A DNA stretch of 64,000 nt from assembly GCF_017094465.1 (NCBI RefSeq), contig NZ_CP064791.1, positions 2,108,001 to 2,172,000 of the forward strand, written 5' to 3'. The notes under the pieces are model-generated. The model was not told the DNA's origin. It made no database searches and worked only from the letters and a program-made list of their open reading frames with translations. This DNA is from Halapricum desulfuricans. Lineage in GTDB: Archaea; Halobacteriota; Halobacteria; Halobacteriales; Haloarculaceae. Shown here in pieces: positions 6,591 to 58,410 of this stretch. Position numbers and translations under genes: made by a program. Within the stretch, counting starts at the first letter, position 1. Every line of letters starts with the position of its first letter.

Positions 6591-7652
6591 ATGAGTACAT
6601 CCAACGTCGTACAGAGATACAAGGAGAGCAATATCAGCTCAGTCCTTAGCGAGAACAAGCCGGCACTGCTGGTCCTACCGGGATTCCTGCTGTGGGCGGC
6701 GTTTATGGTCGTCCCGATGTTCTACCTTTCTGTCCTCTCGCTGACGAATGCGACACAGTCAGGTCAGAACAGCCTGTACCGTGGCGATGGGACGCTCCTC
6801 GGAATTCTACCGGTTGGTTCGGCGGATGTCGTTGGTCTCGAGAACTATATGGATCTGCTGTTCACCGACAGCGCACTCCAGCAGGGCGTGATCAACGCGT
6901 TCATGTCCGATCCGCTGTCGATCTTCGAGTTCGCGTTCTGGAACTCGATGCTCGTGACGTGGCTGTTCGTCGCTGTCAGCGTGTTCGGAAAGGTCGTACT
7001 CGGTGTTGGCCTCTCGATGGTTCTCACCGGCAATCGAGTTCGTGGGAAACGGTTCTTCCGCGGCATTCTGATTATGCCGATGGGCATCCCCGTGATCTTC
7101 TCGATCGTCGTCTGGCGGGCCGTGTTCAGCAGTGCTGACTTCGGCTTGCTGAACAATCTGCTCCTCCGTGCCGGGCTGATATCCGAGTCGATCGGGTGGT
7201 TACAGGACCGGTGGCTCGCGTTCGGCACGTACGTCGTGACGGAGATGTGGTTGGCGTATCCGTTCATGATGCTGATTACTGTCAGTGCGCTACAGAACGT
7301 CAATGGAGAGCTGCTCGACGCGGCGAAAGTCGACGGTGCGGGCTGGTTCGCACGGTTCTGGCACGTCGTTCTGCCATCGATCAAGCGCCCGGTCCTGTTC
7401 GGCACGATCCTGACTTCCGCGGCGTCGTTCCAGCAGTTCCTCGTTCCGTGGATCTTCAACAAAGGTGGTCCCGGGACCGAACCGGGCCAAAACGCGCTGA
7501 TTCTCGTCTACGCGTATCGGGAAGCGCTTGTCTCGCCGGCCGACTACGCCCTCGGTGGAGCGATCAGTATCGTGATGTTGGTCTTCCTCGGAGGGTTCAT
7601 GTACGTCGCAGTCAAGCGTGGCAATCTCGCAGAGGAGGCTGGTGAAACATGA
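6591..7652 (+). CDS. Sugar ABC transporter permease (MalF type)
   Basis: The 353-residue membrane protein has about seven hydrophobic segments and the EAA-loop of binding-protein-dependent permeases near residues 240-263 (ELLDAAKVDGAGWFARFWHVV), which couples to the ATPase. A periplasm-facing stretch of about 70 residues after the first membrane segment contains SLYRGDGTLLGI. It follows the binding-protein gene by 47 bases and overlaps the next permease gene by 4 bases (ATGA), so the three are one operon. It is the first of the two transmembrane subunits of the importer. Confidence 0.92.
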   Translation: MSTSNVVQRYKESNISSVLSENKPALLVLPGFLLWAAFMVVPMFYLSVLSLTNATQSGQNSLYRGDGTLLGILPVGSADVVGLENYMDLLFTDSALQQGVINAFMSDPLSIFEFAFWNSMLVTWLFVAVSVFGKVVLGVGLSMVLTGNRVRGKRFFRGILIMPMGIPVIFSIVVWRAVFSSADFGLLNNLLLRAGLISESIGWLQDRWLAFGTYVVTEMWLAYPFMMLITVSALQNVNGELLDAAKVDGAGWFARFWHVVLPSIKRPVLFGTILTSAASFQQFLVPWIFNKGGPGTEPGQNALILVYAYREALVSPADYALGGAISIVMLVFLGGFMYVAVKRGNLAEEAGET

Positions 7653-14029: not shown

Positions 14030-15025
14030 ATGATCTCCAAGGGTTGCGAGCAGTGTGCCAAAGGCGGGAAGATGGTCATATTCGTCTACGGCTACTGTGA
14101 CCAGCGCGATTGTTTCTACTGTCCCCTTGGGGAGAACCGCAAGAACGTCACCGACGTCTACGCCAACGAACGGAAAGTGGAGGAAGATCAGGACATCATC
14201 CGCGAGGCCGAGCGGATGAGTGCGATGGGCTCGTCGATCACTGGCGGGGAACCCCAGGAAGTGATGGATCGGACGACACGATACATCTCGCTGCTCAAAG
14301 ACGAGTTCGGCGAGGACCACCACATCCACCTCTACACTGGGATCACTGGCGGTCGGGAGAACATGCGCCGGCTGGCCGAGGCCGGACTGGACGAGATTCG
14401 GTTCCACCCGCCCTTAGAGCAGTGGGGCGATCTCCACGGCACCGAGTGGGAGGAGATCCTCTATATCGCTCGCGAGGAGGGGATCACACCCGCCTTCGAG
14501 ATTCCGGGGATCCGGCCTGAGACGGAGTTTCTGGAGTTCCTCGACGAGGGAGCCGCGGAGTTCTGTAACGTCAACGAGTTCGAGATGTCGGACGGGAACT
14601 TCCGGCGGATGCAAGAGCAGGGCTACGAACTGCGAGAGGGGCACATGAGTGCCGTCGACGGCGACCGCGAGGAGATCCTGGACGTGATGGGAAGCCACGA
14701 GAAGGTCTACTTCTGTACGTCCGTGTTCAAAGACGCCGCCCAGCATCGCCGTCGGCTCAAGCGGATGGCCCGGAACGTCCGGCGGCCGTTCGACGAGATC
14801 ACCGACGACGGGACGCTGGTCTACGGGAAGACGACGGTCGATCCCGAGCGATTCGAAGCTTTGGGCGTTCCAGAAGAGTACTACACTGTCAAATCCGAGC
14901 ACGTCGAGGTCGCCTGGTGGCTCCTGGAGGAGATGATCGCGGAAGGCGATATCGAGCGTGGCGAGATCGTCGAGCAGTACCCGACGGTCGATGGAACCGT
15001 TGTCGAACGGACGCCGGTGGCGTAG
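14030..15025 (+). CDS. Radical SAM protein related to PFL-activating enzymes
   Basis: The 331-residue protein resembles the archaeal family of uncharacterised radical SAM proteins related to pyruvate formate-lyase activases (COG2108-like, from memory). The cluster motif is CDQRDCFYC, which is C-X4-C-X2-C rather than the standard C-X3-C-X2-C. The SAM-binding ITGGEP motif follows at the expected distance (SSITGGEPQEVM). Other conserved stretches are HIHLYTGITGG and FCNVNEFEMSDGNFRRM. The start at 14030 is preceded by a purine-rich GGGGGT. The reaction is unknown. The last nine codons and stop are repeated downstream in a 161-base tandem duplication. Confidence 0.85.
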   Translation: MISKGCEQCAKGGKMVIFVYGYCDQRDCFYCPLGENRKNVTDVYANERKVEEDQDIIREAERMSAMGSSITGGEPQEVMDRTTRYISLLKDEFGEDHHIHLYTGITGGRENMRRLAEAGLDEIRFHPPLEQWGDLHGTEWEEILYIAREEGITPAFEIPGIRPETEFLEFLDEGAAEFCNVNEFEMSDGNFRRMQEQGYELREGHMSAVDGDREEILDVMGSHEKVYFCTSVFKDAAQHRRRLKRMARNVRRPFDEITDDGTLVYGKTTVDPERFEALGVPEEYYTVKSEHVEVAWWLLEEMIAEGDIERGEIVEQYPTVDGTVVERTPVA

Positions 15026-15053
15026 CAGACGCCGAACTGCGTGAGGCGTTTCA

Positions 15054-15080
15054 CCGGAGCCGAGTGTAACGAGGCTCCGG
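15054..15080. terminator. GA-loop hairpin and T-run after the radical SAM gene
   Basis: Stem CCGGAGCC/GGCTCCGG (8 bp) closes the 11-base loop GAGTGTAACGA and is followed at once by CTTTTT. The loop can fold further: outer GA/GA mismatches, then a G-C pair, a T-A pair and the triloop GTA. A stable hairpin plus T-run 30 bases after a stop codon is a plausible terminator. An identical copy lies at 15215-15241 in the second tandem unit. Confidence 0.5.
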
Positions 15081-15150
15081 CTTTTTCCCCATGTTTTTGC
15101 GAGGAGTGGTAGCCGAGAGAAGCGAGGCTACCCGACGAGGAAAAAGTGGG
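15081..15150. repeat. Hairpin element copy B1
   Basis: The outer arms are CCCCATGTTTTTGCG and the matching AAAAAGTGGG end, with one bulged G. The inner stem GGTAGCC/GGCTACC (15108-15114 with 15126-15132) closes the loop GAGAGAAGCGA. Between outer and inner stems the two strands carry GAGGAGTGG and CCCGACGAG, which align as two tandem G-A mismatch pairs separated by G-C pairs. Confidence 0.65.
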
Positions 15151-15214
15151 ACTGGGACCGTTGTCGAGCGGACGCCGGTGGCGTAGCAGACGCCGAACTG
15201 CGTGAGGCGTTTCA

Positions 15215-15241
15215 CCGGAGCCGAGTGTAACGAGGCTCCGG
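15215..15241. terminator. Second copy of the GA-loop hairpin and T-run
   Basis: This is identical to the hairpin at 15054-15080 and lies inside the second 161-bp unit. In the opposite direction it lies beyond the 3' end of the convergent Gdx/SugE gene, so it could also stop transcripts from that side. Confidence 0.5.
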
Positions 15242-58164: not shown

Positions 58165-58210
58165 ACTCGACAATAGCAATTCAGCCGTCTCACATCCATT
58201 CGACGGAAGA

Positions 58211-58234
58211 ATGGGCCCGGGCGGAGTTGAACCG
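58211..58234. repeat. 24-base copy of the tRNA-Val 3' end (att-like remnant)
   Basis: This stretch is identical to 58336-58359, which covers the last base pairs of the T-arm, the acceptor stem and the discriminator of tRNA-Val. The copies are 125 bases apart. Partial copies of tRNA 3' ends are the usual mark left by integrase-driven elements. The 101 bases between the copies hold a perfect 11-bp hairpin with one wobble (58232-58257 region) and the arms CTGCGAC/GTCGCAG, but no integrase gene. Confidence 0.7.
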
Positions 58235-58336
58235 GAGTGAGACGGTCGTCTCGCTCCGCTCGACGCTGCGACTCCCGGGGTTCGACTCCGGCCGGCAGTA
58301 CGATTCGCTCCTCACCTTCGTTCGTCGCAGAATCGA

Positions 58337-58410
58337 TGGGCCCGGGCGGAGTTGAACCGCCGATTTCGGCCTTGTAAAGGCCGCGTCATAACCAACTAGA
58401 CCACGGACCC
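58337..58410 (-). tRNA. tRNA-Val (anticodon UAC)
   Basis: On the minus strand the sequence starts GGGTCCGTGGTCTAGTTGG and ends CGGGCCC plus discriminator A. The 7-bp acceptor stem pairs with one G-U. The anticodon stem CGGCC/GGCCG encloses TTTACAA, so the anticodon is TAC (UAC, valine GUA/GUG). The T-arm contains GGTTCAACTCC. The length is 74 bases with no intron. CCA is not encoded. Its 3' part is copied at 58211-58234. Confidence 0.95.

Follow-up and report, generated by a model that had tools for sequence, protein, structure and literature searches.

In the window, a stretch of 64,000 nt of the Halapricum desulfuricans genome, a tRNA-Val(TAC) gene was located with ARAGORN on the minus strand (Table 1). 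Its 3' end belongs to a direct repeat of 24 nt, ATGGGCCCGGGCGGAGTTGAACCG, positioned at 58211-58234 and 58336-58359. The two copies are identical at 24 of 24 nt, with a start-to-start distance of 125 nt and 101 bases between them. The repeat corresponds to tRNA positions 52/53-73 and one flanking base, and includes the T-loop, the 3' strand of the T-stem, the 3' acceptor strand and the discriminator. The perfect repeat of the acceptor and a part of the T-arm, with its 101-base gap, was thus described exactly in the initial annotation.

The sequence between the copies contains two hairpins. The order on the tRNA strand was determined to be: tRNA, hairpin A, a short spacer, hairpin B, a copy of tRNA positions 53-73 and, often, a further hairpin A. 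The unit begins with the base that follows the mature tRNA and closes with the last base of the copy; its size of about 125 nt is composed of a spacer of about 105 nt (median, 105 nt) and the 21-nt copy. The hairpin A-like sequence CCGTCGAATGGATGTGAGACGG beyond the last copy is expected if the basic module is a tRNA end with hairpin A. The inverted T-arm, GGAGTCGAAC, fits the deviating T-arm GTTCAACTCC of the host species' tRNA-Val with one mismatch. Elsewhere in the window, a direct repeat of about 160 bp with CGAACTGCGTGAG hairpin motifs was noticed at 14953-15240 (at 15033 and 15194). An ARAGORN tRNA with the anticodon cccg at 7461-7553, where no RF00005 match was listed, looks spurious.

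Table 1. Features of the tRNA-Val(TAC) locus and its unit (positions in the window).
Feature	Position	Strand	Basis or remark
tRNA-Val(TAC) gene, target/host tRNA	58337..58410	-	ARAGORN; RF00005 65.4 bits
tRNA positions 53-73 (GTTCAACTCCGCCCGGGCCCA), repeated segment inside the tRNA	58337..58357	-	Ends of the repeat compared at 200 tRNA loci
Unit hairpin A (CGATTCTGCGACGAACGAAGGTGAGGAGCGAATCG), containing the tandem G.A motif CGAAC-GAAG-GTGAG	58301..58335	-	
Inverted T-arm GGAGTCGAAC, left outer arm of hairpin B	58280..58289	-	
Hairpin B core (CCCGGGAGTCGCAGC...GACCGTCTCACTCCG); conserved AGTCGC / CGTCT inner stem	58233..58279	-	
Hairpin B tip C-GA-GC-GGA-GC-GA-G; GNA triloop, flanking G.A/A.G positions; tRNA strand only	58250..58262	-	
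Second (downstream) copy of the segment 53-73; comprises the right outer arm of hairpin B and the acceptor 3' strand	58212..58232	-	
Hairpin A-like sequence (CCGTCGAATGGATGTGAGACGG) beyond the last copy	58185..58206	-	Likewise after other arrays

To determine the frequency of such copies, every tRNA of three complete Halapricum genomes was included without selection, and up to 3 edits in 20 nt were accepted within 300 nt of the gene. In this single genus, a copy of the own 3' end was detected downstream of 61 of the 127 tRNA genes (20/44, 16/42 and 25/41 per genome), whereas an upstream copy was found with 2/127. The corresponding values for the first 20 nt of the tRNA and for nt 21-40 were 1/127 and 0/127. 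The repeat is therefore far beyond chance. A DNA search of six Halapricum genomes, one contig of which matches Halapricum hydrolyticum HArc-curdl7, showed this arrangement downstream of tRNA-Val(TAC) in four other genomes; one of these has two tandem units and another about four. No unit was found behind this tRNA in one congeneric genome. Similar units behind other tRNAs were obtained in the same search.

The T-arm palindrome of hairpin B, expressed as GATTYGAAC-N30-60-GTTCRAATC, was detected in 250 of 292 Halobacteria genomes, representing 70 of 77 genera, and the reversed control pattern gave no match in the 292 genomes. In a sample of the phylum Halobacteriota, the palindrome was present in 45/53 Halobacteria vs 2/242 other genomes. 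All four palindromes of the host genome stand behind tRNAs. In a set of 27 loci 26 of 29 palindromes were located just 3' of a tRNA, and among the matches listed for 80 named loci at least 69 of 82 were directly behind one; in most of these listed matches the bases past the palindrome copy the acceptor of that tRNA. The tRNA-Val repeat is one member of a haloarchaeal family and not a scar of a single locus. A large and apparently undescribed family of hairpin units of about 100 bases is present in most salt-loving archaea.

Outside Halobacteria, a tRNA-end copy together with the T-arm palindrome was observed in a Woesearchaeon (L125), a Rhodospirillaceae MAG (L174) and an alphaproteobacterial MAG (L177), in the last of which the units are in tandem and include CCA. 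Large perfect palindromes of a tRNA 3' half occur in Bifidobacterium genomes, bifidobacterial-type viral contigs and a Verrucomicrobia MAG (L114-L116, L295-L298, L301); these are probably inverted att sites, distinct from the haloarchaeal units. With the exact palindrome pattern, no unit was found in viral contigs, where the matches were limited to the bifidobacterial att palindromes and tRNA clusters. The searches of phage and plasmid collections with the window unit gave no match.

In the initial annotation, the repeat was considered a scar of a tRNA-targeting element, possibly a collapsed island. Similarly to the islands and proviruses integrated by tyrosine recombinases, the unit has the tRNA 3' end as its target and a duplicate of it at the far side, and real islands do use tRNA ends in the host genome. 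The unit differs from these elements in its size of about 125 nt, the lack of an integrase in the 101 bases between the copies and the presence of the inverted T-arm. The same architecture was found at dozens of tRNAs and in 70 of 77 genera, and the island end which was examined has a tail of only 13-15 nt and no hairpin B. Hence, the att-like duplication stands as a description of the locus, whereas its restriction to tRNA-Val does not, and a collapsed island or an ordinary att scar at this one locus, refuted in its locus-specific form by the many occupied tRNAs, has a negligible probability.

Apparent or likely islands and one cassette-like segment were noticed at tRNA ends of the host genome. 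An apparent island of about 66 kb extends from tRNA-Met(CAT) to a displaced repeat unit (G000:C1, ~129.4-196.0 kb; L064, L058, L003) and carries a Phage_integrase (tyrosine recombinase) gene at 129502-130515. Two tRNA-Glu(TTC) genes are 7.7 kb apart at G000:C1:2218007-2225834 (L049); the first is closely followed by a strong integrase match, and the region is likely an integrated element. In the tRNA-Lys(CTT) array (L065 ~1060-2620; G000:C1 ~1628.5-1630.0 kb), a cassette-like segment of about 1.2 kb lies between tRNA-end copies. It encodes a TAT-signal protein of 201 aa with few relatives, for which Pfam gave the TAT signal only; a 97% identical homologue is located near the same tRNA in the genome G005.

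Two other kinds of haloarchaeal repeats were compared. PATEs and MITEs (PMC3119063) are likewise short, non-coding and palindrome-bearing. They are described as dispersed and IS605-like, whereas the units sit behind tRNAs with the end of each tRNA, and the tRNA-bound palindrome counts given above differ from the tRNA-independent insertion of IS605-derived PATEs. CRISPR arrays contain unrelated spacers between identical repeats, whereas the spacers of the units share one structure.

The boundaries and structure of the units were determined from pooled loci. In 200 tRNA loci, the first copy agreed with the tRNA at an identity of 0.88-1.00 from position 52 to 73, and beyond this range the identity did not exceed 0.56. 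The outer arm of hairpin B is complementary to the T-loop and the 3' T-stem, and complementarity deeper into the acceptor was absent. The arm fitted its own copy better than swapped copies, with complementarity of 95% vs 70% at position 57 and 56% vs 35% at position 63. A weaker, direct comparison of 33 units with unusual T-arms resulted in 19 fitting their own T-arm better and 11 the consensus. The inner stem positions were paired in 101/103 and 100/103 units, compared with about 47 and a maximum of 63 in shuffles, and A-T, C-G and G-C pairs were about equally numerous. Compensatory changes maintain the structure of hairpin B. For the tip motif GA-[AC|GC]-NNN-[GT|GC]-GA, 113 units had it on the tRNA strand and 1 on the opposite strand, and the tip loop was GNA in 101/118. 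As the pooled sets were partly picked by the palindrome itself, these values describe the family and not its frequency. The hairpins proposed for the 101 bases are accordingly real as a pattern, two in number and covarying in a conserved arrangement, although the folding energy of the single window copy was not exceptional in comparison with shuffles (z 0.03 as DNA and -1.5 as RNA).

A second type of hairpin insert (..ACCCTCGC...GCTCAGTCCCG..) was observed in, or in place of, the T-arm part of the tail at L091, L133, L152, L193 and L278, where the repeat is limited to the acceptor part. Tails seemingly derived from another tRNA at L129, L133, L143 and L152 were considered as donor scars and rejected: those of L133 and L152 contain other hairpins inserted into the tail, and those of L129 and L143 are truncated or degenerate.

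The closest known case is the 178-bp repeats of E. coli tyrT/tyrV (RtT, Rfam RF00391; rttR/tpr). Three 178-nt units follow tyrV, each ending in the tRNA 3' end as the haloarchaeal units do, and each holds an inverted piece of the tRNA end (GGGGAAGGAT against ATCCTTCCCC), inversion being also a property of the haloarchaeal units. An E. coli unit is located between two tRNA genes as well, comparable with the tRNA duplicates with units between them at L106 and L200. On the other hand, RtT occupies one locus in E. coli, its units are 178 nt long and include CCA, and its palindrome covers the T-stem and acceptor instead of the T-loop, whereas the haloarchaeal units are class-wide, follow many tRNAs and have a different core. 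The Rfam RtT model detected four copies in E. coli and, at E<=1, gave no match in five other loci (four haloarchaeal and one alphaproteobacterial); among the loci tried, haloarchaeal units matched no Rfam family.

In E. coli, the counterpart carries the annotation of a small RNA (rttR), and the haloarchaeal unit could likewise be an RNA-level cis element, transcribed as a tRNA trailer, with hairpins acting in termination, 3' processing or as a small RNA, a role which has been proposed for RtT. The inverted T-arm would then lock the extra T-arm away from competing with the 3' half of the tRNA itself. In agreement with this, the units occur exclusively downstream and on the strand of the tRNA, and their start coincides exactly with the mature tRNA end; strand-specific motifs with covariation suit an RNA. 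GNA triloops, however, are a hallmark of stable DNA mini-hairpins. Moreover, the number of units behind the same tRNA varied from 0 to 4 among congeners, a patchy presence that would be unusual if the RNA element were needed. An RNA function as the explanation of the units is, therefore, regarded as unlikely.

The variation was followed in sister genomes, which include empty sites. Precise differences of 1 vs 0 units were determined for Ser-GGA (690 nt of flank aligned at 90%) and Val-GAC (89% over 715), and a precise indel separates 2 from 1 units at Lys-TTT. At Leu-GAG, one species has a lone unit that shares 97-98% identity with the sister's second unit and not with the sister's first, which is different; judged from the sequences, this pattern is a gain of a unit beside the tRNA. 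The newest unit adjoins the tRNA at Leu-GAG, Ser-TGA and Lys-TTT. By the stricter count, for which a permissive version (<=7 mismatches) was set aside, the distal copies were more diverged in 18 arrays vs 2 (p = 4e-4). Two species with a flank identity of 85.6% share the tRNA-Ser(GGA) and its unit at 100% identity over 214 nt. In Halorubrum, the interiors of tRNA-Asp and tRNA-Ser units were 92-94% identical and the tails were each tRNA's own. The initial annotation had reasoned that a short arrangement fixed in distant haloarchaea with a conserved spacer would point to another function. The units are indeed widespread with a conserved spacer architecture, but they are patchy and turn over fast among congeners instead of being fixed.

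This turnover may not demand a dedicated enzyme. A satellite of direct repeats could vary by unequal exchange and acquire new units by homologous import between species, its hairpins being maintained via palindrome-templated correction or selection. The Leu-TAA array of one species, a 98% tandem duplication of the sister's unit, is in accordance with such a process, and so are the deletions between direct repeats, some of them partial tRNA duplications, reported in Haloquadratum (PMC3119063). Nevertheless, the class-wide conserved core, the one-strand tip and the near-identical interiors behind different tRNAs are left unexplained, and a satellite as the full account seems improbable.

The favoured reading, to which about an even chance is given, is that the units are short non-coding cassettes gained by site-specific, attC-like recombination and accumulating at haloarchaeal tRNA 3' ends. 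The 'miniature element' named in the initial annotation comes near to it. The T-arm/acceptor segment of a unit would recombine with the same segment of the tRNA, and the incoming unit would restore the tRNA end and displace the older end outward. Both ends of the repeat would be explained, because positions 53-73 are what a crossover in the T-loop must bring for a working tRNA. A retro-origin from an RNase Z-cut trailer, suggested by the repeat end at base 73, was dropped, as the restoring of a working tRNA explains this boundary. The polarity of the arrays would follow from insertion at the tRNA, although both polarity and 100% identity can be obtained also by gene conversion and homologous import. 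The spread between tRNAs with own tails does not result from a single T-loop crossover, and gene conversion or a second exchange would therefore be needed. Tandem copies may later grow and shrink by ordinary recombination as well.

Ordinary integration leaves the inverted T-arm unaccounted for. In the attC-like model, a single strand of the unit would pair with itself through this arm, so that the T-arm becomes double-stranded and the missing second strand for recombination is provided, as in integron attC; the very stable one-strand tip would nucleate the fold. In common with integrons, the array grows beside a primary site, and the predicted, imperfect one-strand hairpin consists of an outer arm (starting with GTT and ending with AAC), an internal loop, an inner stem and a variable tip. 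With their strand-specific motif and covarying stems, the units may form a folded single-strand hairpin with the asymmetry known from integrons. In contrast, the attC core GTTRRRY / RYYYAAC is replaced by GTTCRAATCC (box GTTCRAA, fourth base C), the primary site is a tRNA and, as a rule, no gene is carried. No integron integrase stands beside the window unit: the proteins on either side of it have no recombinase domain in Pfam, and none is encoded in the unit. The recombinase would act in trans. The host genome contains seven tyrosine recombinase matches, several of them close to tRNAs; none of the seven, and no recombinase elsewhere, was tied to the units.

Tails specific to each tRNA from any donor, with addition next to the tRNA, would result also from staggered cuts of a Cas1/casposase-like enzyme, the 21-nt tRNA end being the duplicated target and the remainder the insert. 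The inverted T-arm of the insert, however, matches the tRNA at the site and would not be expected in a donor that came from a different tRNA, and a target duplication of 21 nt would be unusually long for enzymes of this type. Target duplication is, hence, very unlikely to be the origin of the units.

A description of the haloarchaeal units was not found in the literature searched, which was composed of open-licence papers. By their distribution, what was a one-locus curiosity in E. coli, the tyrT repeats, becomes a genome-wide and class-wide phenomenon in archaea. The units occupy the site where most islands and proviruses integrate, and tandem copies of tRNA ends alter the behaviour of integrases, tRNA annotation and island-boundary finders. 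Two old questions, the nature of the tyrT repeats and how tRNA ends became a favoured docking site of mobile DNA, are now testable. It is conceivable, though doubtful, that Halobacteria harbour class-wide, non-coding mini-cassettes, unnoticed so far, which recombine as folded single strands with tRNA T-arms via a putative recombinase. If true, an integron-like process with tRNA genes as docking sites would operate throughout the class.
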